Source: Thereva unica
Taxonomy: Eukaryota; Arthropoda; Insecta; Diptera; Therevidae
Direction: 5' to 3'
Assembly (NCBI GenBank): GCA_949987705.1
Contig: CATLJY010000890.1
Span: forward strand, 51,926-115,925
Length of the DNA: 64,000 nucleotides
The position numbers were made by a program, and so were the translations under genes. The notes beneath the pieces were generated by a model, which was not told the DNA's origin, did not search any database, and was given only the letters and a program-made list of their open reading frames with translations. This document shows, in pieces, positions 3,208-48,690 of the stretch; position 1 is the stretch's first letter; each line of letters begins with the position of its first letter.

Positions 3208-4020
3208 TCCAAAGATAACGGTATCCTTTAGGAAATTTTATTTCCTTGTTGCGAACTGCCTTATCGGCAACGTAAAATTATTAATTTTCTCCGAATTTTG
3301 AGGCCAATTGTATAATAATTATTTGTAATGTATTTAAATAATTATTTTAATTTGTCTTTATATTTTTTCGACTGTTTTTTCTCTTTTTTGTCGATTTTTA
3401 TTGCAGGGATATTTTTATTCCCTAAAATGGCCATGAATAATTTCCCTTCTCCATTTTGTACACAACTATTCTTGTCTCGCTTTAATTTTATAAGTTTATT
3501 TTCTCTTTCTTTCTCCTTAACCTTATGGAGAAATATTATTATTAAAATATCTTTTTACACGTATCTTTTTCGATGTTTTTAATGTCACCATTAGAATCCG
3601 CGCGAAATTCTACATAAGTTTCATATGTCATTTTCATATGAAACATAAAATTTGACGTTTCTTTGCCGGGCGAAGTTTTGTGTATGTCGCGAGTGATATT
3701 TTAGTGTTTTTCACCTGTTTTTCCTGACCTTTCAGGTAAGTAACGTGATGTGGTGTGTTTATTGTTCACCTGTGAAAAGTTGTGTGTGTTGTAGGTGTGG
3801 GAAATTGTGTTTTCTTGTGTGAAAATAGGTGGATAAAAATGATAGGTTATATCCGTCATTTTCCACCTAAAAATGCTATTTTTCACCTGTAATCTGTGAA
3901 ATAGACACATATTGTACAGGTGAAATGATATGTAGCACATATTGCGCAAGTTTCCTTAACTTGGATGTGCTTTTTATATGTTATTTAGTTAAATTCGGTT
4001 TGTGCGATCGATCACAAAAT
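3208..4020. other. AT-rich region upstream of the Helitron gene
   Basis: No gene supported. It contains a perfect 10-bp inverted repeat, GTTTCATATG at 3618-3627 and CATATGAAAC at 3635-3644, and several copies of ttcacctg between 3710 and 3920. It may include the 5' end and promoter of the Helitron, but no unambiguous Helitron terminus was found. Confidence 0.45.
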
Positions 4021-6672
4021 ATGCCTCGAAAAAAATACTCGATAGCGCAAAAAAAAGAAGCAGCCGAACAACGTCGTACTCTTCGCACCGCGTCGCAGCG
4101 AAATAGACGTAGTAATAATGAATACCGTCACACAGAACGACAAATAGATGCAGAAACTCATAAAATTGCACGTGAGCATGAGCATCGTCGTCGGCAAGAG
4201 CAAGAACGAAATACTGAGACCCACCGACTTGCTCGCAATGATGAAGATCGCCGTCGACAAGAGCAAGAAAGAGATACTGTAGCCCGCACATTTGCTCGTA
4301 CGGATGAAGATCGCCGTCGGCAAGAGCAGAACTTAGATACTCAAGCCCGCAGACGTGCTCGCAATGACGAGGATCGCCATCGGGAAGAGCAAGCTCGAAA
4401 CACTCGAGCACGTCTACTTAATCGAGAAAATTTGAACCAGTCCTGGCACAGTGCCAGTTCAATTTTTCTTAATACGATCAAGGAAGGCCCAACAGTATCA
4501 TGCAATTGCTGTGAAGGACTTTCGTTCGCACGGTCTATAAAAACAATGTCCTTACAGCAGCTTGAAACTAAACCAGCAGATTTCAAAATTAAAATTGGAT
4601 TTATATCCCAGTCCAAAGGGTTATATAATCTATGTGGGACGTGTTATTCGGCGATTAAAGGGAACAAAATTCCGAATTTATGCCTCACTAATGGTCTTTC
4701 ATTTCCATCGATCCCCATTGAAGTCTCACGCCTTACTAAGCTCGAGGCACGGTTAGTTTCACCTCGTCATGTGTTTCAATGTATTTGGGCTGTTTACGGA
4801 ATTCGTGGTCAATATCAAACTAAGGGGCAGTTTGTAAATGTGCCTGTCTCTATTGACACGACTGTCTCATCATTGCCAAGACAAGTCAATAACTCGGGGT
4901 GCGCATTCATTCGCCTTGCCAGACAAATGCATGTTTTGTCAAACTATGCTCCAAAAATATACGTCCACAGCTCGTCTATGATGCTGCTCGTCGCCTCTCA
5001 GCTTCACCTCTTTATCGAGAGTACGGAATTTCACTTAGTTCCAACTGGATGCAAGAAGTTCAAAGAGTTGGTACACAAATTCAGGATATCGATGGAATTT
5101 TATTAGGATCACCATGGGCTGAAGAAGGCAATGCAAGTGTTGTAGGACATAATATTCAAAATATTATGATTGAGGCGCCAGATGATAGTGAGGAATTAAA
5201 TCCGGGCGGTACTGAGACATTGATATCTGCTGAGATTCAACAGTTGGACTGTGTAGAAGGAATTCGTTTGGCTCCTGCCGAAGGAAATCGGCCGATTTCT
5301 GTACTTTTCGATAAAGTTTCTCCGTTTTTAGCATTTCCAAAACTATTCGGAGGGGAAAGTTTATCAGGCAAAATTAACGCTGCAGGAAAGGAAAAGGAAC
5401 TCAGCAAAACTGAACTCTTTAAATCTTTGGTAAGGAGATCAGACAGAAGAGCAGCTGAATCAACTGAATTCATTCTTTATGCTGCAAAAGTTCTTGAAAT
5501 TAGTCGAATTTCAAGTAATCACCAAATTTGTCTTCGTAAAAGAAGAAATACTGGAGAGCAAGTTGTCACGGCAGCACAAATTTCTAATCCCGACTTTGTG
5601 GATGGTATGCTGCGTGATGACAATGCATATCGCATTTTTCAAGGAATGAGGAATTCCTGTCATCATTGGCATCAAGAGGGACTGAGAGTACGAGCAATGG
5701 TCCGTCAATTTGGTTTACCGAATTTGTTCCAAACTCTCAGTGCTGGTGAAATTAAATGTCTGGAACTTATTGTTATCCTTAAGAAAGTTCTTGACGATGA
5801 GGAGATATCTATAGAACAAGCAGGTGAAATCACTAAGCATGAAAAAGAAATTTTAATTCAGCGTGACCCTGTAACTTGTGCAGTGGTAAACATTTCTCAG
5901 CCCTGCTGGGAAGTGCGCCTTCTGTGTTAGAAGGGAAACTCTATATATGTATATATATACATATATATGTATATATATATATATATATACATATATATGT
6001 ATATATATGTATGTATGTGTATGTATATATAGATTTTCATGCTTAGCTGAAAAGTGCGCCTTCTTTGCTAGAAGGGTTAACTCTTGCTTGAGAAGATACT
6101 TTGACAACCGATTCCAAGCGCTAATGAAAACGTTCAAATGTTCAGAAGGCCCTTTAGGAAATCGAGAAATTCTCCACTACTTCTATAGAGTGTAATTTCA
6201 ACATAGAGGCTCTCCTCATGTTCACATGATTCTCTGGGTCGGTAACGCTCCCATTTACAAAGAAAACGATGTTCAAAATGTTGAAGCAATATGTCAATTC
6301 ATAGATGAACTGATCTCATGCTCAACAGACTATCCTGAAGAGGACCCTACTCATCAACTCTTGCCTCTAAATACACATCGTCATACTTCCACATGCAAGA
6401 AGAAAAGTAACAGAGGAATAAAATGTCGGTTTGGAATTCCATTCTTTCCTATGGACCGCACACGAATTCTTACTCCTCTTCATATATCAGAAAATGAAAT
6501 AAGGAGTTGTAAAAGTAAATTAAAACGGATCAAAATATATCTTGAGTCAGATGGACCTCTTGCATTAACCTCTTTCGATGAGTTTCTTAGAGCTCTTCAT
6601 CTTGACAAAGAAACATATATTAATATAATCCGTTCTTCACTAGCGAGAGATAAAGTCTTCCTGCGTCGCCGG
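4021..6672 (+). pseudogene. Helitron Rep/helicase, broken N-terminal half
   Basis: Starts MPRKKYSIAQ at 4021. An Arg/Glu-rich repeated segment (residues ~40-130, several imperfect copies ending RRRQEQ) is followed by the conserved cysteine block CNCCEG...LCGTCY and VSPRHVFQC seen at the N-terminus of insect Helitron replicases. The Helitron-like N domain follows, with the HUH nickase motif as RGSPHVHMILWV at about 6205-6240. Lesions: a frameshift near 4955-4965, a ~210-bp insertion at about 5885-6095 carrying an AT microsatellite, an in-frame TAA at 6193-6195 just before the HUH motif, and loss of everything after 6672, where a SINE begins. The Rep catalytic tyrosines and the PIF1-like helicase are absent. 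Helitron identity is firm, and the copy is dead. Confidence 0.85.
5885..6095. mobile_element. Short insertion (MITE-like) with internal AT microsatellite
   Basis: Interrupts the Helitron reading frame between codons that are adjacent in related proteins. It carries the motif AAGTGCGCCTTCT twice (about 5911 and 6052), flanking a TATATGTA microsatellite at 5940-6030. A relative of its left part occurs in reverse orientation at 63180-63235. Exact ends and target duplication are unclear. Confidence 0.55.
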
Positions 6673-13544: not shown

Positions 13545-13812
13545 TTCTAATATTATAAATGCGAAAGTAACTCTGTCTGTCTGTCTGTCTTTCTGTCTGT
13601 CTGTCTGTTACGCTTTCACGCCTAAACCGCTGGACCGATTTTGATGAAATTTGCTACAGACATAGTTTATACCTTGGAGACGGACATAGGCTACTATTTA
13701 TGGAGAAAAAAAGGGTTGAAGGGGTTGAAATGGGGTAAGTAAGGTAATAAGTAGTAAGGGGATTTTTTTTCTTTCCTTTTTTTAATTGTATAAAAAGTAA
13801 CTGACTGACAGA
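13545..13812 (+). mobile_element. 5' part of a minisatellite-bearing Helitron-like repeat
   Basis: Begins CTAATATTATAAATGCGAAAG, then a (CTGT)n microsatellite at 13572-13609, then TTACGCTTTCACGCCTAAAC. The same head occurs at 31708 and 40752, each followed by an array of ~118-bp units. Two of the three arrays end at GGCACGCGGGTTTTATGCTAGT (34395 and 42651). The layout (short head, GTCY-type microsatellite, tandem block, CTAG|T end) resembles DINE-1/Helentron-type non-autonomous Helitrons. Confidence 0.6.
13807..13812. repeat. Polinton target-site duplication, left (GACAGA)
   Basis: GACAGA directly precedes the terminal AGTAGTAGAG of the element. The same six bases follow the right end at 29804-29809 and occur once at the matching empty site 31972-31977. 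Confidence 0.95.
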
Positions 13813-14352
13813 AGTAGTAGAGCTAGGCCGGTTCTGGGCCACCTCTCAGGTGGCCCCGTAACCGCCTAGGATTTGGGGGGGTCTGAAAGCTCTTTATGTA
13901 CGTGTACGAGGTGTTTTAGGTTTGTGTCTTGGATAAGGTGGCTTAGAGTTGGTGTGTGGAGATGGGTGAAAGCTCTTTATGTAGGTGTACGAGGTGTTTT
14001 GGGTTTGTGTCTTGGGTAAGGTGGTTTGAAAGCTGTATATGGAGGTTGGGTATCTTGGATGGGGTGGCTTGGAGTTGGTGGGTGGAGATGGGTGAAAGCT
14101 CTGCATGTAGGTGCGTGAGGTGTTTTGGGTGTGTGTCTTGGATGGGGTGGCCCAGAGTGGGCATGGGATTTGGTGTGGGACCAGCGTGGGATTTGAATGC
14201 TGTGTTGTTGAGTGCCACCTGTGGGAAGCTAGTTGAATTTCGGTGTTGATTTGGTCCAGAGCTGGCATGGGATTTGAGGTGTGACTTAAAGCTCTGGATG
14301 TATGTTTCTTGGATAGGGTGGCGCAGAACGGGCATGGGATTTGGCCCAGAGC
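13813..14352 (+). repeat. Polinton left terminal inverted repeat (540 bp)
   Basis: Reverse complement of 29264-29803 with three mismatches by eye, at positions corresponding to the a/g in gggtatctt, the c/t in gtgcgtgagg and the a/g in gttgatttgg. Identity stops at 14352/14353. The repeat is built of internally repetitive T/G-rich modules (gcatgggatttg, gaaagctct.atgta). The apparent long minus-strand reading frame through it is mirrored on the plus strand of the right repeat and is not a gene. Confidence 0.95.
13836..13856. other. Perfect subterminal hairpin in the left TIR
   Basis: GGGCCACCT ctc AGGTGGCCC: 9-bp perfect stem with a 3-base loop, 23 bp from the element tip. The mirrored copy lies in the right repeat at about 29760-29780. 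It could be a site for integrase or terminal-protein recognition; that is inference. Confidence 0.6.
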
Positions 14353-14538
14353 TGTCATGGGATTTGGGGATGTGACGGAAGGCTCTGGATGTATCTTTGC
14401 GTGGCCCAGAACCGGCATGGGATTTTGGATAAAAAGTTGGTGCGAGATGTGAGCGCCAGCTGTGGGAAGCTAGTTGAACTAAGAATTAAAGAAGCTCTTG
14501 AGGGATCTTTTGTAATGATCTTTGATTCAATTATTATG
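14353..14538. other. TIR-proximal spacer
   Basis: Contains degenerate copies of TIR modules (GGCCCAGAACCGGCATGGGA, CAGCTGTGGGAAGCTAGTTG). No gene supported. Confidence 0.5.
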
Positions 14539-14573
14539 TATATAAATCCTTGAAAGGGGAATGTTAGGTTAGT
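14539..14573 (+). promoter_or_regulatory. TATA + initiator for the left-end Polinton genes
   Basis: TATATAAAT at 14539-14547 and an initiator-like TTAGT with its A at 14571, a spacing of 32 bp. It would start a transcript that contains the three small plus-strand frames at 14592, 14777 and 15052. Confidence 0.55.
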
Positions 14574-14591
14574 TTTCTTCCGGTTGCGGTG

Positions 14592-14774
14592 ATGAACAGT
14601 TATAAGGATTCTACCAGATTGCTTGAGGAAAAGGGTGATAAAGGAAGCAAAGTAAAAGAATTAAAATATCAACTGAATTCTCTATCAATTAAATCGAAGC
14701 AATCATCATCATCATCATCTGAGAGTAAAGATACTTCTTCATCCATAAGATATCAGCAGATAAAAGATAAGTAA
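14592..14774 (+). CDS. Small Ser/Lys-rich protein, unknown function
   Basis: 60 residues from the ATG at 14592, the first ATG after the predicted start site at 14571. It is charged, with a heptad-like stretch LEEKGDKGSKVKELKYQL and a run of eight serines (tcatca codons), and no recognised domain. It ends 2 bp before the next ATG at 14777. Three small frames in three different registers (14592, 14777, 15052) follow each other here. They may be separate products of one leader, exons of a spliced gene, or a decayed single gene. I cannot tell which. Confidence 0.4.
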   Translation: MNSYKDSTRLLEEKGDKGSKVKELKYQLNSLSIKSKQSSSSSSESKDTSSSIRYQQIKDK

Positions 14775-14776
14775 AT

Positions 14777-15079
14777 ATGAACATACCAAAATTTCTCGAA
14801 GAATATTCTAGTATACTGTTGGAGGAGCATAAGGATAAAATAGAACAACTCTATAGATATGTTCAAGAATACGAAAATGCTGGAAAAGTTTATTCTATAC
14901 ATGGAGCACATTACAAGAACTGCCCATGGTCGAACGATAAAACAACTTGTGGACCAGATACATGTGGATGCTGTTTTGTGGAGCGGTACAAACGGGAAGT
15001 TCAACGCCTAGTAAATTTTTATGTCCGGATCACCAAAAGCAGCTGTAGAGAATGCAGAAAAGGGTTCGATTTACACTAG
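14777..15079 (+). CDS. Cysteine-rich 100-residue protein, unknown function
   Basis: N-terminal ~45 residues are helical and charged (FLEEYSSILLEEHKDKIEQL). They are followed by a compact cysteine/histidine block, HYKNCPW...CGPDTCGCCFVERY, and a final CRECRK, which could bind zinc. Not recognised. It overlaps the PPP1R15-like gene by 28 bp in a different frame, so translation of both would need a second transcript, leaky scanning, reinitiation or frameshifting. The neighbour context suggests an accessory, perhaps host-interacting, role; that is inference. Confidence 0.45.
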   Translation: MNIPKFLEEYSSILLEEHKDKIEQLYRYVQEYENAGKVYSIHGAHYKNCPWSNDKTTCGPDTCGCCFVERYKREVQRLVNFYVRITKSSCRECRKGFDLH

Positions 15080-15282
15080 CGCCTGAATTACACATTATGC
15101 ATGTATGGGATTTCGCTTATAGAGCTAGCCGTATGGGACAATGGTATATAAGTGCCCTTGATAGATGCAGATTTCAACAGAGAGTCATCAATACTGGCAA
15201 AATCCTAGAGCCCATATTAAACCAACATCATCGTGAAAAAATATATAGCACAAGATTTGAAAATAAAACAAATTTGTTATAA
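15052..15282 (+). CDS. PPP1R15/GADD34-like PP1-eIF2alpha phosphatase cofactor
   Basis: 76 residues from ATG 15052; an in-frame TAG sits two codons upstream, so this is the natural start. Residues 4-7 are RVRF, a PP1-docking RVxF motif. V18-W19 follows at the right distance. Then come R27, G29, W31, A35, D37, R38, R40, F41, R44 and V45, which reproduce the spacing R-x-G-x-W-x3-A-x-D-R-x-R-F-x2-R-[IV] known from the eIF2alpha-engaging part of PPP1R15 proteins and their viral mimics (herpesvirus ICP34.5, African swine fever virus DP71L). Family knowledge: these recruit PP1 to dephosphorylate eIF2alpha and restore translation. Length is like the short viral forms, just the core. The WDFAYR block is reminiscent of insect PPP1R15, suggesting host capture (inference). 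An AATAAA follows at 15262. It converges with the integrase gene. Confidence 0.8.
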   Translation: MQKRVRFTLAPELHIMHVWDFAYRASRMGQWYISALDRCRFQQRVINTGKILEPILNQHHREKIYSTRFENKTNLL

Positions 15283-15303
15283 AAAAATGTCTTTTTATTT
15301 AAT

Positions 15304-16230
15304 TTATAATACATCATTAGCATTTATCCAAGAATTATGTTCTCGTGAGAACCCCAACCATTTAACATAAACTTTATCACCGCTCTTTTTCAATATTTTT
15401 TCAACTAGGTAGAGATCTGAGTGTTTAACTTTCTGCAATTCCTTTTCATAGAATCCACCTTTAATGGGGTTGCCCTGGTAGTCCTCAAGTTGATATGTCG
15501 GTGGATTAGTCAGTTGAACCTTGGAGATTTTAAAGATTTCAGTTGTCCAGTTTGGTGTGTAGCCTTTTTCAAATAGATGTTTATATTTGCTTATGCGGAC
15601 GCGGTCTCCTATTTTATATGCAGGTGAAGGGGCAATTTTGATGTGATTATAGGCTGTAGCAAGAAGTAGCTTTTCATTTGTCCTATTAACATCACAGGGA
15701 CGCATTTTAATTGTTCGATGTTTTTTTGCATTGTATTGTGATAGCAGTTTTTTCATCATAGAAATCCATTTGTAGGATCCATTCATGCTAAATTCCTTCC
15801 ACATCATGCTCTTTAAAGTTCGGTTGAATCTTTCCACTATTGATGCCTTAAGCGATGTATATGTTGAGTAGTGGTTGATTTTATATTTGCTCATTAGCTT
15901 TTGAAAGTGAGAGTTGTAGAATTCCTTACCATCATCCGTTTGCAAATTGTTAGGTGTGCGCCCATCTTTAAATATTGATTGCATCGCTTCTGTGACTTCT
16001 GGACCGGTTTTTCTTTTAATTGGCATAGCCCAGGCATATTTAGAAAATGCATCAATTACAGTCAGTAAGTAGCGGAATCCTTTGTTTACATGTTTATATG
16101 CATCCATTTCCACGAAGTCAGCCTGCCACAAATCATCCAGACCTTTAATGATAACTCTCCGCCTAGAAAAATTTCGATGAGCAGGTTTGTGAAGCTCATT
16201 TACTACTTGCCTCTTACTCAGAGATGCCAT
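15304..16230 (-). CDS. INT: Polinton integrase (RVE family) with C-terminal chromodomain
   Basis: 308 residues, ATG at 16230. It inserts the element and makes the 6-bp duplication. The N-terminal LHKPAHRNFSRRRVI segment precedes the catalytic core: D38 in QADFV, D99 in LQTDDGKEF and E133 in VERFNRTLK, the DDE triad. A basic SH3-like region (YKIGDRVRISKYK, ~225-237) leads to a chromodomain at about residues 272-308 (YLVEKILKK...VYVKWLGF...SWINANDVL), which in related integrases targets chromatin. Length is usual for Polintons and the frame is undamaged. The start overlaps the end of the collagen-like gene by 17 bp on the same strand. Confidence 0.95.
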   Translation of the reverse strand: MASLSKRQVVNELHKPAHRNFSRRRVIIKGLDDLWQADFVEMDAYKHVNKGFRYLLTVIDAFSKYAWAMPIKRKTGPEVTEAMQSIFKDGRTPNNLQTDDGKEFYNSHFQKLMSKYKINHYSTYTSLKASIVERFNRTLKSMMWKEFSMNGSYKWISMMKKLLSQYNAKKHRTIKMRPCDVNRTNEKLLLATAYNHIKIAPSPAYKIGDRVRISKYKHLFEKGYTPNWTTEIFKISKVQLTNPPTYQLEDYQGNPIKGGFYEKELQKVKHSDLYLVEKILKKSGDKVYVKWLGFSREHNSWINANDVL

Positions 16231-16570
16231 TTTCAGCCTTCTTATTAATTATGTGTGAGAATATATAATTTTCGATCTTCGCAATTTCGCGATAAATGAA
16301 CATCGTTAGATTCTCTACTGCTTTGTCAATGCTTTCCCGTATTTCTTCGTCGACATAGTTTTTGGTTGCAGCGTCAGCATTTTCTTTTGGATCACCTAGG
16401 TCTTTGATTCTTTTCAAGGTAAGATCATAGTCACCATCTGATGTTAAATTGAAACCGTTTCCTTTTGGTCCAGCAGGACCGTCTTTTCCAGGAATTCCAG
16501 GTGGACCGCGATCACCCACTGCTCTAAATTTTTGCCGTTTAAAAGATCGACCAAACTTGTCAACGCTCAT
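16214..16570 (-). CDS. Collagen-like small protein, candidate fibre/attachment protein
   Basis: 118 residues. A basic N-terminus is followed by seven Gly-X-Y triplets at residues 19-39 (GDR GPP GIP GKD GPA GPK GNG). Next come an LKRIKDLGDP...DAATKNYVDEEI segment (about 51-77), a pattern common in trimeric phage and virus fibre proteins, and a helical C-terminus (78-118) with spaced hydrophobics. A short collagen triple helix plus a trimerising coil fits a virion spike or fibre; that function is inferred. Its promoter (TATA and CATTT initiator) lies only about 10 bp before the ATG. It overlaps the integrase start, so both may come from related transcripts. No signal peptide. Confidence 0.65.
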   Translation of the reverse strand: MSVDKFGRSFKRQKFRAVGDRGPPGIPGKDGPAGPKGNGFNLTSDGDYDLTLKRIKDLGDPKENADAATKNYVDEEIRESIDKAVENLTMFIYREIAKIENYIFSHIINKKAENGISE

Positions 16571-16578
16571 TTCCGAAA

Positions 16579-16612
16579 TGTTAATAGTTCTATGTGGGTG
16601 GGAATATTTATA
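16579..16612 (-). promoter_or_regulatory. TATA + initiator for the collagen-like gene
   Basis: Minus-strand TATAAATA at 16612-16605 and CATTT with its A at 16579, 33 bp apart, leave a 5' leader of about nine bases before the ATG at 16570. Confidence 0.5.
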
Positions 16613-17495
16613 CTATAATGTCAGCTTCCCGCAACTCCTCAATGATTGACACTATTTCATTACTATGGCTATTATTTCCTGCTTGCTGCGATGCTATCAA
16701 TATTCGGAGCCTATCAACTAGCTCATTGGGGTCATCCCAATATATGTAATCGATATTTTTCTTTGGAATTTGCATTATTCCCGTTCCAGTATGAGGAGTG
16801 TGAATCAACTTTTTTATTATGTTTCTATATTTGAAGCTATTTGTTCCTTTTATTTGCTGGTTTTCCTTAAAATCACGTCTGTGGGTGCATGTATCATTTA
16901 CAATTTTTTGATAATTGGACAAGTCTTCTTTTGAGTAGCCTCGAGGCTTTTTCATAAAAATTAATTCAACTAGACCTTCAGTTATCTTGTACCGCTTGCC
17001 ATCTATAAGAAAGTATTCTTTATCAACTTTTAATCTTGAATTACCAATATTCCACATATCGTTCTTATAGTACGCTCCATACGTTTTATCAATTCTCGTG
17101 CTATCATTTTCCAGTAGTTGTTTATATTTGTTTAGTATCTGGTCTGCAGACTCTAATTTTGGTTCTTTTGTAGGTGTGACAAACTGATCATCATCATCAT
17201 CATCATCATCATCCTCAGAATAACTCGGTGGCTCTAGCTTTAAGTATTTACGTGGTGGTGGTGGTGGTGTGTATGCTTCTTCATTGCCCTCGTGCTTAAT
17301 TTCATCTTCTTCTTCTTTTGGTTCAAGTTTCACTGATGCTGCTGTTGTTGTGAGCTTTTTCAGCGTGTTGGTTATAGGTTTAAATGTTTCCTCTAATTGA
17401 GCTTCAGATTCAATTTTACCAGTCTTGAGAGCTTTATATTTTCTTCGTATAGCCTCACGTGTTTTTATAATATCCTTCATCAATTTTTCATTCAT
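16608..17495 (-). CDS. Conserved Polinton protein of unknown function (DUF8207-like C-terminus)
   Basis: Read from the ATG at 17495 (MNEKLMKDII): an ATG at 17549 exists, but the TATA box at 17556-17548 with a TCATT initiator at 17524 would place transcription start after it. About 295 residues. A basic helical N-terminus (IKTREAIRRKYKALK) leads to an acidic, proline-rich linker with nine consecutive Asp (gat/atc repeats at about 17190-17215). The conserved C-terminal domain runs YGAYYKND.W.IG...IDGKRYKITEGLVELIF to IDYIYWDDPNELVDRLRILIASQ and a final NEIVSIIEELREADII. That C-terminal block is frequent in arthropod Polintons; its role is not known to me. Confidence 0.8.
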   Translation of the reverse strand: MNEKLMKDIIKTREAIRRKYKALKTGKIESEAQLEETFKPITNTLKKLTTTAASVKLEPKEEEDEIKHEGNEEAYTPPPPPRKYLKLEPPSYSEDDDDDDDDDQFVTPTKEPKLESADQILNKYKQLLENDSTRIDKTYGAYYKNDMWNIGNSRLKVDKEYFLIDGKRYKITEGLVELIFMKKPRGYSKEDLSNYQKIVNDTCTHRRDFKENQQIKGTNSFKYRNIIKKLIHTPHTGTGIMQIPKKNIDYIYWDDPNELVDRLRILIASQQAGNNSHSNEIVSIIEELREADIIV

Positions 17496-17523
17496 GTTGC
17501 TACACGTGTGGTTACAGCTACAA

Positions 17524-17556
17524 TGATATACAGCTATGCTAATAAGCATTTATATA
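17524..17556 (-). promoter_or_regulatory. TATA + TCATT initiator
   Basis: Minus-strand TATATAAAT from 17556 and TCATT with its A at 17524 (spacing 32 bp). It decides the start codon of the neighbouring gene (17495 rather than 17549). Confidence 0.55.
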
Positions 17557-17561
17557 GATCC

Positions 17562-18412
17562 AGACGTACCAGGCAGGTCAACCAGATAGATCAGCCAGAC
17601 AGACCAGCCAGACAGACAGACAGACCGACCAGCCAGACAGACCAGCCAGACAGACCAGCCAACCAGCCAGACAGACCAGCCAACCAGCCAGACAGATCAG
17701 CCAGACAGACCAGCCAACCAGCCAGACAGACCAGCCAACCAGCCAGACAGACCAGCCAGACAGACCAGCCAACCAGCCAGACAGACCAGCCAACCAGCCA
17801 GATAGACCAACCAACCAGCCAGACAGACCAGCCAGACAGACCAGCCAACCAGCCAGACAGACCAGCCAACCAGCCAGACAGACCAGCCAACCAGCCAGAC
17901 AGACCAGCCAACCAGCCAGACCGACCAGCCAACCAGCCAGACAGACCAGCCAACCAGCCAGACAGACCAGCCAACCAACCAGACAGACCAGCCAGACAGA
18001 CCAGCCAACCAGCCAGACAGACCAGCCAACCAGCCAGACAGACCAGCCAGACAGACCAGCCAGACAGACCAGCCAACCAGCCAGACAGACCAGCCAACCA
18101 GCCAGACAGACCAGCCAGACAGACCAGCCAACCAGCCAGACAGACCAGCCAGACAGACCAGCCAACCAGCCAGACAGACCAGCCAACCAGCCAGACAGAC
18201 CAACCAACCAGCCAGACAGACCAGCCAGACAGACCAGCCAACCAGCCAGACAGACCAGCCAACCAGCCAGACAGACCAGCCAGACAGACCAGCCAACCAG
18301 CCAGACAGACCAGCCAACCAGCCAGACAGACCAGCCAACCAGCCAGACAGACCAGCCAGACAGACCAGCCAACCAGCCAGACAGACCAGCCAGACAGACC
18401 AGCCAGGCAGAG
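17562..18412. repeat. ~850-bp minisatellite of 21-bp and 13-bp units
   Basis: Irregular mixture of GACAGACCAGCCAACCAGCCA (quoted unit is 21 bases: GACAGACCAGCCAACCAGCC plus A) and GACAGACCAGCCA. Nearly pure purine-C sequence on plus, with no T except rare substitutions, hence no stop codons in several frames on both strands; the long reading frames through it are artefacts. It separates two co-directional minus-strand genes and may be unstable in length. Confidence 0.9.
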
Positions 18413-18447: not shown

Positions 18448-19131
18448 TCATAGGCTCATGAATACATCGAAGCCTTTTCGATATCGACCTTTGCCCATGG
18501 GGCTGTCCTTATCAATTACTAAGAATCCATATTTGTCTTTCCAACAGTTTGCACACGCTTTTCTGAACTTTGCGAATTTCATATCACTATTCACATGATC
18601 ATTGTATACATGCTTCAGGTTCAAATCATCTTGTTTGAATATGATCAGAAAGTTTGCATTATCTCGGATTAGATGCTTTGGTATATGAGTATAAGTTTGA
18701 CAGAGGTAAAAGCTGTCAATGTCGTTATGCCTCCCCATACAAAAGTAGGCTCTAATATTATTTTGTTTATCGCAGGCTACATCATCAAAGATGAAAATTG
18801 AGTTTGGCTTTGCTTCCTCCGGTGGTATAACATCGTGGTTGTTAGAAAACGTATAATAGCCCAAACCTGATATGTGAGCTACAACTTCTCCTAAATACTC
18901 GTATTTCGGCTGACTTAGCGACTTTGAGTAAATGTATATATTCTCGAATCTCAGACCGTTAGGATGCTCCAGTAGACTTAGCATAACATTTGTCTTGCCA
19001 CAATTCGACGGTCCAACAATAATACCTCTTATACTGTTTGGTAGCAGCACCCCATGCTTCTTTGATGTACTTGTAATTTCCACATCAGTATTTCTAACTG
19101 GTAGACACGCTTGTTGCTTGATAAACTTCAT
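18448..19131 (-). CDS. ATP: FtsK/HerA-family genome-packaging ATPase
   Basis: Begins at the ATG at 19131 (MKFIKQQACL); the upstream codon in frame at 19140 is GTG. About 227 residues. Walker A GPSNCGKT lies about 40 residues in, a Walker B SIFIFDDV about 70 residues later, and a sensor-like YLCQTYTHIPK follows. This is the A32-like packaging ATPase of Polintons and adenovirus-like elements, which pumps the genome into capsids. The length is normal and the frame intact. It is transcribed divergently from the PLA2-domain gene from a shared ~50-bp promoter, with a leader of only about ten bases. Confidence 0.93.
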   Translation of the reverse strand: MKFIKQQACLPVRNTDVEITSTSKKHGVLLPNSIRGIIVGPSNCGKTNVMLSLLEHPNGLRFENIYIYSKSLSQPKYEYLGEVVAHISGLGYYTFSNNHDVIPPEEAKPNSIFIFDDVACDKQNNIRAYFCMGRHNDIDSFYLCQTYTHIPKHLIRDNANFLIIFKQDDLNLKHVYNDHVNSDMKFAKFRKACANCWKDKYGFLVIDKDSPMGKGRYRKGFDVFMSL

Positions 19132-19206: not shown

Positions 19207-20040
19207 ATGATTGACCATAGTAAGAAACGCACCATTCATCGAAGAGCTGCCAAGGGGGGAGGACTGTTAAACACTGTTATAAATAAGTTACCGCTTGAGC
19301 TTCATCTACCGGGATATCAATACTGTGGTCCAGGAACAAAGTTAGCTAAAAGACTAGCCCGCGGTGATCCTGGCATCAACCCACTAGACGCAGCCTGCAA
19401 ACAGCATGATATTGCATATCGAGATCATAAGGACTTAAGCGACCGACATATAGCTGACCGTATTTTAGAAGAAAAAGCCTGGCAACGAGTAACATCTAAA
19501 GACGCTAGCTTTGCAGAACGTGCTAACGCGCTATTAGTAACAAACGCCATGAAAGCTAAAATTAAAGTTGGAATGGGTGTCAAAGCAAAAATTACCTGCT
19601 CGAAGAAGAAGAAGAATACGTTACGTCCATCATTCCGCGAAGCTGTACGTAATGCTAGAAAAGTGTTAAAGCTGAAAAAGCCGAAAGACCTGTTGGAAGC
19701 TACTACAATTGCCCTAAATGCGGCAAAGAATGTTATCAAGGGGAAGAAAAAATCTTACACTACGCCTAGAGTGATACCAGTACCTAAAGTAGGAGGAGTT
19801 TTACCGTTCCTCATTCCACTTTTTGCAGGTCTTTCAGCCGTTGGAGCGCTATCTGGAGGTGCGGCAGGTATAGCTAAAGCTGTAAACGCCGCAAGTGTCG
19901 CACGTCGGGAGCTGCAGGAAGCGAAACGTCATAATGAGACAATGGAAGCTATAGCGCTAGGAAAACCTGGACAAGGATTATTTCTAAAGCCATATAGGAA
20001 AGGACTGGGACTTTTTCTCAACACCCAACCAAAAAACTAA
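19207..20040 (+). CDS. PLA2-domain minor virion protein (VP1/pVI-like)
   Basis: 277 residues. Residues ~30-95 form a parvovirus-VP1-type phospholipase A2 domain: the Ca2+-loop YCGPGT (39-44), then PLDAACKQHDIAYRDH with the catalytic His-Asp pair (about 67-68), and a later conserved Asp. A Lys-rich middle is followed by a hydrophobic, Gly/Ala-rich segment (VGGVLPFLIPLFAGLSAVGA, ~194-215) that could perturb membranes, and a C-terminal GLFLKPYRKGLGLFL motif typical of insect Polintons. Known role of such domains: breaching the endosomal membrane during entry. It starts 22 bp after the TCAGT initiator. Related proteins often continue into the protease; here the stop at 20038-20040 lies in a different frame from the protease region. 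Confidence 0.85.
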   Translation: MIDHSKKRTIHRRAAKGGGLLNTVINKLPLELHLPGYQYCGPGTKLAKRLARGDPGINPLDAACKQHDIAYRDHKDLSDRHIADRILEEKAWQRVTSKDASFAERANALLVTNAMKAKIKVGMGVKAKITCSKKKKNTLRPSFREAVRNARKVLKLKKPKDLLEATTIALNAAKNVIKGKKKSYTTPRVIPVPKVGGVLPFLIPLFAGLSAVGALSGGAAGIAKAVNAASVARRELQEAKRHNETMEAIALGKPGQGLFLKPYRKGLGLFLNTQPKN

Positions 20041-20436: not shown

Positions 20437-21147
20437 ATGTCGATAACACTCTCTCTTACTGGCAATGCATCGGTTCTCACCGCTGAATACTTTCCCCCAT
20501 TGGAATTAGCTGGAGACTACGTTTGCGGATTAATTGACTTTCAAACATACAATTCTATACCGAATATTGATGACAGCAACAACTTAATGCATGTGGGAGA
20601 TGCGTGTATCGAAATACCTGTGGCATCATACGAGATTGATGACATAGCAGCTTCAGTACAGCAAAGCTTAAATAAGAGCAGCAGCAAGGCAACAGTCTTA
20701 ATAAGGGCAAACAATAATACCTTGAAGAGTGAAATAAAAGCTACTGAAGTTATACATTTTGATAAAGAGCGATCTATCGCACCGCTGTTGGGATTTGGAA
20801 AACGTGTTCTGGATGCAAATATATTACATACATCAGATCTACCCGTCAATATTATAAAAGTTAATACTATAAGGGTTGAATGTAACATCATATCAGGCTC
20901 ATATATCAACAATAAACAGGTGCATATGCTGCATGAATTTGCCCCAACCGTGGGGCCAGGCTATAAAATAGTAGAGGTTCCAGCGAATGTGATCTATTTA
21001 CCGGTGAACGTCAAACGTGTTAGTTCGCTCACACTAAAGCTAGTTGATCAGGACGGAGATTTAATAAATTTTCGAGGTGAAACGATAACTATCAGACTAC
21101 ATTTAAAGCCACAGAATGATAGTCTACGGCAGCAACAGCAGCAATAA
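20437..21147 (+). CDS. mCP: Minor capsid (penton, single jelly-roll) protein
   Basis: 236 residues starting MSITLSLTGN, with a beta-rich sequence throughout: LAGDYVCGLIDFQTYNSIPNI, then LLGF, then INNKQVHMLHEFAP, and a final NVIYLPVNVKRVSSLTLKL...DLINFRGETITIRLHL. The order and ending are those of the Polinton minor capsid protein that forms capsid vertices. The tail is LRQQQQQ (cag/caa repeat). Located directly upstream of the major capsid gene as usual. Intact. Confidence 0.88.
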   Translation: MSITLSLTGNASVLTAEYFPPLELAGDYVCGLIDFQTYNSIPNIDDSNNLMHVGDACIEIPVASYEIDDIAASVQQSLNKSSSKATVLIRANNNTLKSEIKATEVIHFDKERSIAPLLGFGKRVLDANILHTSDLPVNIIKVNTIRVECNIISGSYINNKQVHMLHEFAPTVGPGYKIVEVPANVIYLPVNVKRVSSLTLKLVDQDGDLINFRGETITIRLHLKPQNDSLRQQQQQ

Positions 21148-21184: not shown

Positions 21185-21274
21185 CAACCGACAACCTTGA
21201 AGCGAACAAGACGTCAACTGAGAGCTGATAATATACAATTTCTAAAATCAATAGGACTAAATTTGAAGCAATGA
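21161..21274 (+). CDS. Small basic 37-residue protein overlapping the capsid start
   Basis: Begins at ATG 21161 and ends with TGA at 21272-21274, overlapping the major capsid ATG as ATGA. The C-terminal half, RRQLRADNIQFLKSIGLNL, resembles short basic peptides found at this position in other Polintons, so it may be a real core-type protein. Against this, a TATA/initiator pair would start transcription after its ATG, so it would depend on the minor capsid transcript. Confidence 0.45.
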   Translation: MNFTENISQPTTLKRTRRQLRADNIQFLKSIGLNLKQ

Positions 21275-22488
21275 ACAACATCTTGGATATTACTGAAGGC
21301 CCGAGCCATGACAATAGCATAACAAAAATTGACTACCACACTTACTCATCGTTCACCTCTTCATTTAAAAACAGTGATGAAACCCGCATTCCAGTGCAAT
21401 ACCAAGACCTGTATATCCTCCCAGCTGAAAGTTTCATATACATTGAGGGAACAGTAACTAAACCTGATGGAACAATATCCAGCACTGCAGAGCTAGTAAA
21501 TAATGCTGTAGCGTTTCTCTTTGAGGAAATTCGCTATGAAATCAATGGTGTGGAAATTGATAGAACTCGAAATCTTGGAATAGCAACAACACTAAAAAAT
21601 TACATATCATTAAACCAAAATGAGAGCCGCATGTTATACAACGCTAGTTGGTCGCCGGATAAATCAATTACATCCCCCCATGGATTCTTCAATTTCTGCA
21701 TCCCTCTAAAAACATTGCTGGGCTTTGCTGAAGATTACAAGAAAATTATCGCCAACGCTAAACATGAACTCATATTAATACGAAGCAGGATGGATGAAGA
21801 TGCGGTCATATCACCGACAGATGATGTAAACATCTCAATTTCGAAACTTCAGTGGCGCATTCCCCATATTAATGTTGCCGATCATGAGAAAATTGCTTTA
21901 TATAAAATCATTGAAAGCGGCCGTGAAATACGAATGCCATTCAGGAGCTGGGACATATACGAGTACCCCACGCTACCAGCAACGACTCATCACACGTGGT
22001 CTGTCAAAACGTCATCGCAGATGGAAAAGCCCCGATATGTCATACTAGCTCTCCAAACAAATCGTAAAAATGATAAAACAAAGGATGTCAGTAAGTTTGA
22101 CCACTGCAAGCTGACAGATGTTAAAGTGCACTTGAATTCGGAATCATACCCATATGATGACCTGAACTTGAAATTTGATGCTCATAAATACGCTCTCCTA
22201 TATGATATGTATATAAAATTCCAAACTTCATACTATGGACGTCAGTTGCAGCCACTACTCTCAAGGGAAGAGTTTATGCGTGATGCTCCGATCGTAGTCA
22301 TTGATTGCTCCCGGCAAAACGAAACCATTAAAACAGGTCCTGTGGATATAAGGTTAGAATTCAAAACATCAGAAAACGTTCCCACTAACACAACAGCATA
22401 CTGTTTATTGCTACATGATCGAATAGTGGAATATACACCTCTAACCAACGAAGTCAGGGGCCGGTTCGTGTATGGCGAACGACGATAA
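21271..22488 (+). CDS. MCP: Major capsid protein (double jelly-roll), 3' end altered by a MITE
   Basis: 405 residues. The start NNILDITEGPSHDNSITKIDYHTYSSF, written here in part as SITKIDYHTYSSF, and blocks such as RIPVQYQDLYILPAESF, LFEEIRYEINGVEIDR, ISKLQWRIPHI, SGREIRMPFRSWDIYEYP and the ending ENVPTNTTAYCLLLHDRIVEY are those of the Polinton double-jelly-roll capsid protein that forms hexon-like trimers. A 250-bp MITE entered the final codons: everything after ~22454 is MITE-derived and replaces only the last few residues. The jelly-roll core is therefore unaffected and the protein could still fold. Confidence 0.93.
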   Translation: MNNILDITEGPSHDNSITKIDYHTYSSFTSSFKNSDETRIPVQYQDLYILPAESFIYIEGTVTKPDGTISSTAELVNNAVAFLFEEIRYEINGVEIDRTRNLGIATTLKNYISLNQNESRMLYNASWSPDKSITSPHGFFNFCIPLKTLLGFAEDYKKIIANAKHELILIRSRMDEDAVISPTDDVNISISKLQWRIPHINVADHEKIALYKIIESGREIRMPFRSWDIYEYPTLPATTHHTWSVKTSSQMEKPRYVILALQTNRKNDKTKDVSKFDHCKLTDVKVHLNSESYPYDDLNLKFDAHKYALLYDMYIKFQTSYYGRQLQPLLSREEFMRDAPIVVIDCSRQNETIKTGPVDIRLEFKTSENVPTNTTAYCLLLHDRIVEYTPLTNEVRGRFVYGERR

Positions 22489-28109: not shown

Positions 28110-29263
28110 TAATAATACTGTGCTGTGTCTGAAATAAATAAATAATTGTGCGATTTATCAGAATAAAAAGCAAAATAATATGTGTTCTAATTAATAGTTG
28201 TTTTTTATTTGTAGCTATTACAACTACAACAATTCTTTTTAATACCTTAACTTAGTTAAATATTTCAGCAGTTGGCTTGGGTCTAATTAGCACTTAAGGT
28301 GATCAGTTTAAATAATAGTATTTATCCAATTCGTTCAGGATCGAATAATTATGGTATAAGGGAATCTTCATTGTTTTTAGTATGTGACTGAGTTTATGTT
28401 AAGTATTTTTGTGGCAGCTTATGCCACTTTCTAGTGTTTGCAATATTTGCGGTTTGTGAAGGGTATTTTAGTTTAAAGTATTCAATTTTATTCTTTAAAA
28501 ATATATCCAGCATGTTCAGGATAATAATAATTACATCATAAGTGTGATGAGAATGGGAATCTTAGCTGTATGGTTGTTGTTGTTGTTATCGGAAATATCT
28601 TTTTCAGATATGATTTTCTTGCCCACTTAGTAAGTTGCGATTGCTGTAATATCTGCGACTTGAGGTGAGTATTTTCATTAAGAATTCTTTGGAAGGTAAT
28701 AATGACATATGGTTGCAATCCAGATCTTAGCTTACAGATCGCACCGGGTTGTTGTCCAGACCCAATGCTGGATCTCAGCTAAAGCTTAGTGTTACTTGAA
28801 AGTCCAGTTCTTCACTGAATTATATGTATATTTTGCTCTAGAATCCAAGCTCATTCCATAGCCTAAGTTGCTACCAGAATTAATACTTGAAAAATATGCT
28901 GAATTTGTTTGCTCCTAAAACTATGCAATATCTTTTTCAGGTATGACTTTTTTAGTCACTTAGTAATTTCAAGTTGCGGTTGTTGTAATATCTGTGACTT
29001 GAGGTGGTATACCCAATGCTGGCTCCAGCTAAAGCTTAATTTAATTCTTAGTGTTACTTGCAAGTCCAGTTCTTCGCCAAATTATTTGTATATTTTGCTC
29101 CAGAATCCAAGCTCATTCCATAGCACAAGTTGCTACCGGAATTAATACTAGAAAAATCATCATCTCGAAACCAAAGCTCAAATCCCCCACAGCTCAGTTC
29201 ATAGTTCCCCCACTCTGGACCAAATTCCATGCCGGTTCTGCGCCACCTTCAAATCACATGCCT
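28110..29263. repeat. Non-coding right-end region with a ~300-bp direct duplication
   Basis: Two diverged copies at about 28600-28890 and 28928-29150 share CTTTTTCAG.TATGA, GTAATATCTG.GACTTGAGGT, CAGCTAAAGCTTA and ATCCAAGCTCATTCCATAGC. AT-rich and without coding potential. It precedes the right TIR. Confidence 0.65.
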
Positions 29264-29803
29264 GCTCTGGGCCAAATCCCATGCCCGTTCTGCGCCACCC
29301 TATCCAAGAAACATACATCCAGAGCTTTAAGTCACACCTCAAATCCCATGCCAGCTCTGGACCAAACCAACACCGAAATTCAACTAGCTTCCCACAGGTG
29401 GCACTCAACAACACAGCATTCAAATCCCACGCTGGTCCCACACCAAATCCCATGCCCACTCTGGGCCACCCCATCCAAGACACACACCCAAAACACCTCA
29501 CACACCTACATGCAGAGCTTTCACCCATCTCCACCCACCAACTCCAAGCCACCCCATCCAAGACACCCAACCTCCATATACAGCTTTCAAACCACCTTAC
29601 CCAAGACACAAACCCAAAACACCTCGTACACCTACATAAAGAGCTTTCACCCATCTCCACACACCAACTCTAAGCCACCTTATCCAAGACACAAACCTAA
29701 AACACCTCGTACACGTACATAAAGAGCTTTCAGACCCCCCCAAATCCTAGGCGGTTACGGGGCCACCTGAGAGGTGGCCCAGAACCGGCCTAGCTCTACT
29801 ACT
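29264..29803 (-). repeat. Polinton right terminal inverted repeat (540 bp)
   Basis: Mirror of 13813-14352 (three mismatches). Ends ...CTCTACTACT followed by the GACAGA duplication. Internal modules and the subterminal hairpin are the same as in the left repeat. Confidence 0.95.
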
Positions 29804-29809
29804 GACAGA
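29804..29809. repeat. Polinton target-site duplication, right (GACAGA)
   Basis: Second copy of the 6-bp duplication. The sequence continues cgcacaacc as in the empty site at 31978. Confidence 0.95.
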
Positions 29810-38885: not shown

Positions 38886-40765
38886 TAGACAAATACGTGC
38901 CGTTAAAGTACTACAGATCTAATAAAAAGGTGTGTCCTTGGTTTTCGCCTATAATTGAATCCCTGTTTCGACAGCGTGACAAAGCCTACGTTCACTGGAA
39001 AAAGTGCAAATCGAATGAAAACTGGACCAAATTCCGCTCGCTCAGAAATCGTACTACGAACGCAATAAAAAAAGCCAAATCGGACTATTACACAGCCAAA
39101 CTTGATGCTAATTTACCCCCTCAAGTGCTTTGGAAGAACCTTCGCAACATCGGGGGAGGGTTACCGGCAAACACACAAGTTGACATTGACCCCACTGTTC
39201 TTAACAACTTTTTTACGTCTGTTGGCTCTGCTTCCAGCGGCAACAGTGACATAGTCAACTCAGCTTCAATATCAGAATCCTCCAGCAGTTTCTCCTGTGT
39301 CGTTTCGAACATCGTTTCTGATTCCGGTTTTTGTTTTATGAGAGTGTCAGAGGAGAACGTCATTTCTGTCATCAACTCTATTAGATCAAATGCAGTCGGC
39401 GTCGACGGCATTAGTTTAAAATTTCTTCGAATTATTCTTCCCTCCATACTTCCTTTTCTCACCCACATTTTTAACTCCTGTCTAACGTCCTCTACTTTCC
39501 CATCTTTGTGGAAGAAAGCAAAAGTTACTCCAATTCCTAAAAAATCCAACGCCTCTCTTCCACAGGACTTCCGACCCATTAGTATCCTTTCTTGCCTCTC
39601 CAAAACTCTGGAAAAGTTAATGTACATTCAAATGGTCCAATACCTTGAATCTAATTCCTTTTTAACTGAATTCCAGCATGGCTTTAGGAAGAACCACAGT
39701 TGCAGTACTGCCCTCCTAAAATTAACTGATGATCTATGCCTGAACATTGATCATGATCATTTAACCATTCTCTCACTGCTGGACTTCTCGAAAGCTTTCG
39801 ACTCTGTAAATCATACGCTTTTATGCCAGAAAATTTCTTCTCAATTCAACTTCTCATCGTCCGCTGTCCGTCTTATTTGGAATTTCATAAGCGGTAGATC
39901 TCAAAAGGTTTGCACAGACAATTATGAGTCCAGTTTCTCACTCTTATCTAAGGGCGTACCTCAAGGTTCTATACTTGGACCGCTCCTCTTCTCTCTCTTC
40001 ATTAATGATCTCCCAAAAGAACTGAATTTTTGTAAAGCCCTGTTGTACGCGGACGATGTTCAAATCTACCTTAGCTGCCGACTTGGCATGATTGAGGATT
40101 GTATTTGGCGAATCAATAAAGACCTCGAGGCGATTTCTAGGTGGGCGAGAGGGAATAGATTGCAACTAAACCTTGACAAGTCTCAAGCAATAGTCATATC
40201 TAAAAATGTTATAAATACCAATGGATTCCCTGCAGTATTATTAAACCGTAATATCATTCCATTTTGTGATAAGGTAAAGAGCCTGGGGGTTTTTCTGAAT
40301 AAGAATTTAACATGGTCGGATCATATTAACTATATAATTGGCAAGGTCTATAACAGTCTACGAAAACTTTGGTGTACGTCGAACTTTATACCACTCCATA
40401 CTCGCTCAAAGCTTGCTAAATTTCTTTTAATGCCCTTAATAACATATAGTGATGTAATCTTCTGTAAACTCGATTCATTCTCCCAGCTAAAATTGAATGT
40501 AGCATTCAATTTTATTGTCCGATACGTTTATAAAATCCGCCGATTCGATCACGTTTCATCATATTCTCAAGATTTCCTTGGTTGTTCTTTCTCGACATAT
40601 CTTAAAATTCGGCTTATCGTATTCCTCTATAAACTCCTCGTTTCGGGTAAACCGCAATGTCTCCGAGAAAAACTCACATTCCTTCAATCTACTAGAACTA
40701 ATAATTTACTTATGCCCCATTACTCGTGCTTACAATCTAAACGCTTATCCTTACTAATATTATAA
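38886..40765 (+). pseudogene. 5'-truncated LINE reverse transcriptase (CR1/Jockey-like)
   Basis: The open frame begins without an ATG (first candidate codon GTG at 38897) and encodes ~620 residues. Reverse-transcriptase blocks in order: DFRPISILSCLSKTLEKLM, QHGFRKNHSCS, LSLLDFSKAFDSVNH (catalytic Asp), SKGVPQGSILGPLLFSLFIN, and the LLYADDVQIY box, followed by thumb and C-terminal sequence. The endonuclease and ORF1 are absent (5' truncation). The C-terminus runs into the CTAATATTATAAATGCG head at 40752 and is incomplete. Internally undamaged, so a recent insertion. Confidence 0.9.
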
Positions 40766-47200: not shown

Positions 47201-47689
47201 GCTTTCGCCCAAAATTTGGACTTTCATAAACGGCCGCTCATCGGCGACGTCATTAATTATAGCTGAAATAGCCTTGTTAGCCATTTGTTGTTTTTCAATA
47301 GCCCTTATGCGTATACGTGGGACCTTTACTGGTCGATGAACGTCGTCGTCTTCTTGGAAGATTCGTTTTCGGACCTTATGGTACTTGACCCATCGGTGCA
47401 TGAAGGAAATCTTAGCTTGTGGAGTAGGGAAGTCCGGTAAAGGTTCTGCGGATGGTGGGTCGGAACAGTCCGTCGTACAAGATGGTGAGACAGGTCTGGA
47501 TGAGAGAAAGTCAGGACTTATATCGGGCGCGGGTCTCTGCGAGGCCTCGCACCCTGGTTCGGGTTTCCCGAACACTTCGGACAAGTAGGGGTATAAACAT
47601 CTGGTCTGCCACACCGATAGCAGAATACTCTTCGGTCCGGAGAAGTGCACTCCGTGAAAGTGTGACCGTCTTGTCGGCAATTCCAGCAA
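44244..47689 (-). pseudogene. Ty3/Gypsy pol (protease, RT, RNase H, integrase), degenerate
   Basis: Order on the minus strand: protease with LLDSGASMSCLG (~47185); RT with SPVVLVRKPGKVRLCLDSRK, SAVDLKDAFWQIPLEE and VFVYLDDLLVV (YLDD box); RNase H (TRPFFIQCDASKTGVGSVLF, ITELECYAAVLSVKKF, ITDHASLKWL); the integrase zinc domain (HGGIGKTLHRLREKYFWP...CDVCKE); and the integrase core (FTDNGRHFTSKEF, NASERVNRSVLA), then a GPF-like tail FDPGQIVFRR. Lesions: frameshifts near 46680, 46450 and 44616, and in-frame stops at 46145 (TAG) and 45083 (TGA). The start overlaps gag by about 170 bp in another frame, as expected for frameshift expression. Confidence 0.92.
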
Positions 47690-48690
47690 TTAACTGGCCG
47701 TCTCACTACCTGGACACCCTTGATTTCATCGACGGTGGGTGATTGGTCGTACTCTTCATCCGGGTATGTGGGGACACATTGTCGCGAGTTTAAATTATCT
47801 AATTCATGTACTTTGTACGGGTGTCTCCCTTCTTCCTTCTTTGCTCGCTGCCACCTTTCCACTCGAATGCACGCTTCGCGAAGCTGGCGCATATTGTCAT
47901 ATGTTGACCCCATTACCGCCCCTAGGGAGGAACTAAGGTTGGACATGACAATCTGTACCAGCTCGGCGGAGGGCATTGGCCTTGATAAGCGATTCGAAAG
48001 TGCCAACATTTTGGCGGCGTATACATCGTAGGACTGACCCAATTGTTTGGTTTCCAAGAGTTCTTTAATAATCTGGTAGTCGGTCTCACGCCCACCGAAT
48101 TGGTCGAGCAGGCTTGTTTTAAATTCAGACCACATAGGATTAGCATGGTGTCGACGGAATTGGGTCCAGTACCAGTCTTCGGCGGGGCCTGACAGAAGAG
48201 CTACAATGTTTCGAGTTAGCTCTGAGTTTAAGATTTCCTCATCCCGAGCTCTAGCTTCGGTTCGGTAGAGAAATTCCTCGGCCAAGATTTCTCCCGGCCG
48301 ACCTGAAAACTTAATGTTCCATCCTACAACAGGGGATTTCCGCTTAAAGGAGGGTCCCGTCCTATCATATTGTAAGCTAGGCCGGTCACCTACACTGGAG
48401 GTGCGGTGGAGGATTCCAGTTTGCTCCGGCTCGATGGTGGCAGTACTATGGCGGTTCAGTGATGATGGTTCTCCCAGACTGGCGCGGTTTGGGCGTGATT
48501 GCGACATTTGTTCGTAACGGTCTTGCATTCTGCTCAGTTCTTGTTTCAGACTTGCCACTTGTTCGATCAGAGCCTCCAATGGGGCGTCATGATCAGGCTC
48601 ACCGGACTCTGCACCAGGCCGAGCTTCATCAGATGGTTCACCGTCGTCTGAGGGTGGAGCAGTATTTGCCCCTGAACGAGTAGTAGGCAT
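47518..48690 (-). CDS. Ty3/Gypsy gag
   Basis: ATG at 48690 (MPTTRSGANT); the frame is open upstream but with a GTG. About 390 residues. An acidic, coiled-coil-prone N-terminus (EALIEQVASLKQELSRMQDR) is followed by a capsid-like region (AEEFLYRTEARARDEEIL, GPAEDWYWTQFRRHH, FGGRETDYQIIKELLETKQ) and two zinc knuckles, CWNCRQDGHTFTEC and CYRCGRPDVYTPTC. Intact, unlike pol. It packages the element RNA in a capsid-like particle. Confidence 0.88.
   Translation of the reverse strand: MPTTRSGANTAPPSDDGEPSDEARPGAESGEPDHDAPLEALIEQVASLKQELSRMQDRYEQMSQSRPNRASLGEPSSLNRHSTATIEPEQTGILHRTSSVGDRPSLQYDRTGPSFKRKSPVVGWNIKFSGRPGEILAEEFLYRTEARARDEEILNSELTRNIVALLSGPAEDWYWTQFRRHHANPMWSEFKTSLLDQFGGRETDYQIIKELLETKQLGQSYDVYAAKMLALSNRLSRPMPSAELVQIVMSNLSSSLGAVMGSTYDNMRQLREACIRVERWQRAKKEEGRHPYKVHELDNLNSRQCVPTYPDEEYDQSPTVDEIKGVQVVRRPVNCWNCRQDGHTFTECTSPDRRVFCYRCGRPDVYTPTCPKCSGNPNQGARPRRDPRPI

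Follow-up and report, generated by a model that had tools for sequence, protein, structure and literature searches.

Herpesviruses and African swine fever virus (ASFV) use a PPP1R15-type module to restart host protein synthesis, and relief of a translational block is the known role of PPP1R15-type genes in viruses. A further example, coGV-gp036, comes from an insect virus, and we take coGV to be a granulovirus. According to passages of PMC4394352, coGV-gp036 was aligned as a PPP1R15 protein, the conservation of viral PPP1R15 proteins is limited to a C-terminal core, and fragments of this core are enough to dampen the response of cells to stress. Here we describe a stand-alone frame of 76 codons from the fly Thereva unica (GenBank assembly GCA_949987705.1, contig CATLJY010000890.1) that resembles this core and lies within a Polinton. 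The window, that is the whole stretch of DNA analysed, is 64,000 nucleotides long, and the coordinates of its features are collected in Table 1.

Table 1. Features of the Polinton and its surroundings in the T. unica window (positions counted from the first letter of the window).
Feature	Position	Strand	Basis or remark
Left terminal inverted repeat, begins AGTAGTAG	13813..14366	+	554 nt; GACAGA at 13807-13812
Candidate TATA box of left-end cluster, TATATAAA	14539..14546	+	consensus match only
ORF1, 60 aa, Ser/Lys-rich	14592..14774	+	translation
ORF2, 100 aa, Cys-containing	14777..15079	+	28-nt overlap with the 76-aa ORF, which is read in a different frame
PPP1R15/GADD34-core-like protein, 76 aa	15052..15282	+	homology searches, motif count, translation
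AATAAA, candidate poly(A) signal	15262..15267	+	overlaps end of 76-aa ORF; consensus match only
Retroviral-type integrase (rve)	15304..16230	-	PF00665, E 1.3e-14
118-aa protein, collagen-like stretch and tail-fibre-like part	16214..16570	-	weak Pfam matches below cut-off
313-aa protein, no family	16608..17549	-	Pfam only E 0.06 or worse; NCBIfam none
A32-like packaging ATPase	18448..19131	-	PF04665, E 1.7e-8, above cut-off
Phospholipase A2-like domain protein	19207..20040	+	PF08398, E 1.1e-13
236-aa protein, candidate minor capsid	20437..21147	+	suggested by position alone
Double jelly-roll major capsid protein	21271..22488	+	PF21738, E 3.1e-141
PolB-like protein, 1253 aa	23261..27022	-	motifs by eye
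Right terminal inverted repeat	29250..29803	-	GACAGA at 29804-29809
Helitron/retroelement regions	3925-5930; 39338-40765; 45083-48690; 53131-55980

Translation of the frame confirmed every residue that the initial annotation had named, namely RVRF at 4-7, VW at 18-19, R27, G29, W31, A35, D37, R38, R40, F41, R44 and V45. An in-frame TAG (15046-15048) stands shortly 5' of the ATG at 15052, which makes this ATG the earliest possible start, barring a spliced message. Such a message would make the 76 residues the last exon of a larger protein that includes ORF1 or other upstream coding sequence and has the PPP1R15 core at its C-terminus, as in cellular PPP1R15; by eye, the TAG abutting the frame resembles a splice acceptor and a donor-like site, AGGTTAGT, lies near 14566. 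We consider this arrangement very improbable, as the ATG carries A at position -3 and is preceded by just one codon of open frame.

The search of 177,635 distinct PDB sequences with phmmer placed the protein next to human PPP1R15A (7nzm_C; E 1.2e-4), with an ungapped alignment across residues 3-65, and the second-best relative was ASFV DP71L (9nb9_B; E 1.2e-3), followed by PPP1R15B (4v0u_E; E 1.9e-3) and a further chain of PPP1R15A (4xpn_B; E 0.023). No other PDB sequence matched at E<0.05, the next match being unrelated (E 0.2). The converse searches were scored against the 695 window frames of at least 40 aa and against 72,630 control frames taken from 100 artificial windows, which a second-order Markov chain had produced. 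With the human PPP1R15A core as a single query, the 76-aa frame ranked first in the window at 28.2 bits (second frame 4.2; best control 11.2), and a PPP1R15B fragment gave 21.7 bits (second frame 4.8; best control 10.6). A profile of 28 PPP1R15 proteins, built without the 76-aa protein, scored it at 39.4 bits, which corresponds to E 1.5e-11 over the 695 window frames. The runner-up in the window had 2.6 bits, the best random frame 10.6 and the top-scoring shuffle of the protein, out of 20,000, had 12.9. The homology that the initial annotation had put forward is thus borne out by the PDB alignment, the PPP1R15A query and the 28-protein profile. The profile search that it had proposed as a check was significant with this profile and fell short with Pfam PF10488 (PP1c_bdg), where 20.4 bits (E 4.5e-4, profile positions 188-228 only) lie below the cut-off of 26.1, a gathering score that curators set for a model of 230 positions and that is not a biological trait. 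A PDB search with a three-row profile of the 76-aa protein and PPP1R15A/B adds no support for PPP1R15A/B, because the profile was built from them.

The shortness of the protein, the single example and the Pfam score under the cut-off could speak for a random ORF that resembles the core by chance, yet no control frame (0/72,630) and no shuffle (0/20,000) came within 26 bits of the observed score, and the motif RxGxWxxxAxDRxRFxxR, searched as written in DNA, had a single occurrence in the window and was absent from all 100 of its shuffles; we attach practically no probability to chance. The two halves of the protein contributed unequally to the profile score, as the residues after Trp31 alone reached 24.5 bits and those up to Trp31 8.7 bits. 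Other PP1 regulators, according to a passage in PMC4394352, do not possess the half that follows W662 of PPP1R15B, and the likeness therefore points to PPP1R15 itself rather than to PP1 binders at large.

The ungapped PDB alignment allows human PPP1R15A residues to be mapped onto the frame by subtracting 551 from their number. The RVxF motif (RVRF 4-7), the Arg-site arginine (R27) and the invariant tryptophan (W31) are kept in register, and W31 corresponds to Trp582. From the residues named in the parts of PMC8500838 drawn on here, the actin-facing Phe592, Arg595 and Arg612 correspond to F41, R44 and R61, and the eIF2alpha-facing Asp588 and Arg591 to D37 and R40, all of which are kept. The same parts describe R587 and R594 as forming salt bridges to eIF2alpha, and both arginines are replaced in the frame, by L36 and Q43; in the PDB alignment DP71L likewise has no arginine at the R587 position and keeps one at that of R594. 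DP71L requires its LSAVL motif, as reported in a passage of PMC5346070, and LEPIL (52-56) of the 76-aa protein aligns with it in the PDB alignment, both leucines being conserved. Of 18 columns invariant in an alignment of 17 vertebrate rows (17 of the 28 proteins entered it), ten are kept (F7, R27, G29, W31, A35, D37, R40, F41, R44 and R61) and eight are changed. An AlphaFold2 monomer model from an 18-row alignment showed helices at 10-52 and 58-75 with low confidence (pLDDT 63.6, pTM 0.31); as PPP1R15 is described as natively unstructured in a passage of PMC4394352, a weak monomer model counts neither for nor against the assignment. On homology, collinearity and the retention of most functionally tested residues, the frame is confirmed, as far as sequence comparison reaches, as a real PPP1R15-core-like gene.

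We judge it probable from these comparisons that the product is a minimal PPP1R15-type cofactor, which would recruit PP1 of the host, together with G-actin, for the dephosphorylation of eIF2alpha. The N-terminal half (RVRF, Arg27, Trp31) would wrap host PP1c and the C-terminal helix (Phe41, Arg44, Arg61) would dock G-actin, while the other face of the helix would present Asp37, Arg40 and the Leu-x3-Leu motif to phosphorylated eIF2alpha. Removal of the phosphate from Ser51 would let translation go on, and the element could in this way keep translation running when eIF2alpha kinases react to its replication. In insects the kinases opposed would be PERK and GCN2, as PKR is not known from insects. 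Complex formation, dephosphorylation, expression, a benefit to the element and an origin from a host or viral PPP1R15 are all points that we infer. The replacement of the two arginines by L36 and Q43 could also be interpreted as a working RVxF/Arg-site half whose specificity has shifted from eIF2alpha, making the product a recruiter of PP1 to another substrate. This outcome seems improbable to us, as it is the C-terminal actin/eIF2alpha half that scores better (24.5 vs 8.7 bits) and the counterparts of R591, D588, F592, R595 and R612 are kept.

The carrier of the gene is a young Polinton. Its two terminal inverted repeat (TIR) arms differ at 6 of 554 nt (divergence about 1%) and are flanked by a 6-bp target duplication. 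Within the left arm, an 83-bp tandem unit is present in 1.9 copies (13884-14044) and is mirrored in the right arm. The capsid gene has 1948 related proteins at E<=0.001 among 3735 candidates; the named relatives among the 120 matches listed are all from insects (Hermetia, Eupeodes, Episyrphus, Lucilia, Stomoxys, Chrysoperla, Trachymyrmex and Cyphomyrmex), and among these listed matches the closest named capsid is that of Hermetia illucens (67% identity) and the top match reaches 85%. These relatives point to an insect, perhaps a fly, as the host of the element. The integrase shows a weak chromodomain match below cut-off (PF00385, E 4.8e-4). The motifs YDVNNLYG and MDTDSLVYE in the 1253-aa frame are presumably of PolB type; Pfam gave no PolB match at E<=0.1 in this frame and placed an Endonuclease_7 domain at residues 533-588 (E 2.3e-5, above cut-off). 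The 236-aa candidate minor capsid protein had no Pfam family at E<=1 and one weak, unrelated NCBIfam match. The 118-aa protein, with collagen-like Gly-X-Y followed by a tail-fibre-like segment and weak PDB matches to a hyaluronoglucosaminidase and depolymerase/tail spike proteins (E 0.008-0.026), may be a virion fibre or spike. A long, GC-richer minisatellite with 13-, 21- and 55-bp periods occupies 17582-18411 within the element, and the 297-aa frame that spans it is encoded by the repeats and is probably no gene.

An adenovirus-type cysteine protease is common in Polintons, though not known from every one, and no such adenain-type protease was found among the element ORFs given to Pfam, which were those other than ORF1, a number of overlapping frames and the small frames at 27-29 kb. 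Of the initial description of the element as complete, young and capsid-encoding, the TIRs, the target duplication and the capsid stand, and the word complete has to be qualified for the protease. Elsewhere in the window we observed pieces that resemble Helitrons, a retrotransposon of the gag/protease/RNase H/integrase type and two frames for reverse transcriptase.

Three small plus-strand ORFs separate the left TIR from the integrase gene, which converges on them, and the 76-aa gene is the last of the three. The second, ORF2, has a Cys cluster, CPWSNDKTTCGPDTCGCC, and no convincing family, with only weak Pfam matches (E 0.089 or worse), none in NCBIfam at E<=0.1 and none in PDB at E<=1; it is possibly another accessory gene. 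The initial annotation had credited the gene with its own TATA/initiator. A candidate TATA box does exist, but it lies 53 nt ahead of ORF1 and 513 nt ahead of the 76-aa frame, and a search of the plus strand from 14300 to 15509 found no TCAGT initiator; placed ahead of two other ORFs, the box is better called a candidate promoter of the cluster. A second TATA box, TATATAAG at 15145, falls inside the 76-aa coding frame. TTTATT at 15294, a consensus match only, is the facing candidate poly(A) signal of the minus-strand integrase. The AUG of the 76-aa frame follows ORF1, ORF2 and additional ATGs, so that translation of the frame would depend on splicing, on an internal promoter or on reinitiation.

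Codon usage speaks weakly against coding, on 76 codons only. The frame scored 0.038 bits/codon in comparison to a mean of 0.045 for shuffled DNA, and among the five alternative frames over this stretch (range 0.014-0.142) four scored higher. The six element genes that trained the table ranged from 0.186 to 0.257 bits/codon, and two genes outside the training set gave 0.247 (118-aa protein) and 0.185 (313-aa protein).

This lack of coding support from codon usage agrees with the main rival to a working cofactor, according to which the element took up the terminal exon of a PPP1R15 gene from its host and carries it as a functionless passenger, still open as the insertion is young. A passage in PMC4394352 describes the PPP1R15 core as encoded by a separate exon, the TAG just before the frame could be an old splice acceptor, and the TIR divergence of only about 1% means that an idle ORF could remain open. 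Set against this, the ORF is compact, has a start and a stop codon of its own and is bracketed by a TATA box and a poly(A) signal, and its overlap with the neighbouring ORF resembles the arrangement in dense viral genomes. In addition, change at eight of the 18 vertebrate-invariant sites with most contact residues kept fits selection over time, although that time was possibly spent in the host gene. Taken together, we regard capture without function as unlikely, albeit less so than the other alternatives, and the cofactor as the preferred reading.

Searches for relatives of the gene covered several collections. The 76-aa protein alone yielded no candidate sharing three 5-residue words among about 5.8 billion proteins. 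When two human core fragments were added, 28 of 32 candidates were returned as relatives; they read as vertebrate PPP1R15A/B exons (one is named Jaculus jaculus PPP1R15A) and none looked like an insect or Polinton sequence, full-length cellular PPP1R15 being outside the length limit of this search. Short-pattern scans followed by tblastn confirmed no relative in a viral contig collection, whether the query was the gene, the capsid or PolB, and none in a genome contig collection, where the capsid was the only query. The pattern matches that failed tblastn numbered 2 and 19 for the gene, 0 and 21 for the capsid and 5 for PolB in the viral contigs, and 14 for the capsid in the genome contigs. The scanned collections seemingly hold no insect Polintons and the patterns were few and short, so these scans are silent on conservation. 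Five viral contig loci that matched in scans with two degenerate DNA motifs of the core (L001-L005; L003 over 1,108 of 68,567 bases) were rejected as chance, their frames scoring at most 9.7 bits, within the random range (10.6/12.9).

The initial annotation knew of no description of this module in a Polinton, and this still holds for the open-licence literature searched, in which no report of a PPP1R15 core in Polintons, Mavericks or adintoviruses was found, most subscription papers lying outside it. In the parts consulted, the main text of PMC11071296 contains none of six PPP1R15-related terms and PPP1R15 is absent from PMC8097293. Viral PPP1R15 cofactors are a known kind of protein, and the 76-aa gene resembles them in a carrier for which we came across no such report.

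A gene of a type known in viruses for relieving a translational block is most readily understood if the element runs into such a block during the expression of its genes, a hint that elements of this kind may face antiviral defence as real viruses do. The wider proposal is that animal Polintons carry a dedicated eIF2alpha-phosphatase cofactor for counter-defence, since they replicate as viruses in cells that respond with translational shut-off, the stand-alone PPP1R15 core having been recruited once more, by an integrating DNA-virus lineage. We advance this proposal tentatively, holding it to be nearly as plausible as its opposite. The gene itself would extend the PPP1R15 core to a further carrier and would offer a simple biochemical test, actin-dependent dephosphorylation of eIF2alpha-P, for a Polinton accessory gene.

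In comparison to the described systems, the carrier resembles Polintons/Mavericks and adintoviruses in its TIRs, 6-bp target duplication, rve integrase, PolB-like protein, A32 ATPase and double jelly-roll capsid, and differs in its PPP1R15 core, for which the literature searched gave no counterpart in such elements, and in that no protease was recognised among the ORFs scanned. The 76-aa protein shares with the PPP1R15A/GADD34 and PPP1R15B/CReP core (7nzm, 4v0u; PF10488) the collinear RVxF, Arg-site Arg and Trp, the actin-facing Phe/Arg/Arg, the eIF2alpha-facing Asp/Arg and Leu-x3-Leu, at 32% and 35% identity to two human PPP1R15A/B fragments; its length from RVxF to Trp equals that of PPP1R15A, the PPP1R15B rows being 5-6 residues shorter. 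Unlike these cellular proteins, which exceed 600 aa according to a passage in PMC4394352, it has 76 aa and no N-terminal membrane or repeat region, and it has other residues in place of R587 and R594 and of the Pro and Glu on either side of the Trp. Herpes simplex virus ICP34.5 and coGV-gp036 also contain the core by the description in PMC4394352, but their carriers are a herpesvirus and what we take to be a granulovirus. ASFV DP71L (9nb9) is likewise a short, stand-alone viral core, a 71-aa chain that keeps Leu-x3-Leu; unlike the 76-aa protein in its match to PPP1R15A, DP71L needs gaps between RVxF and Trp, and its carrier is a large cytoplasmic DNA virus whereas that of the 76-aa frame is an integrating element.
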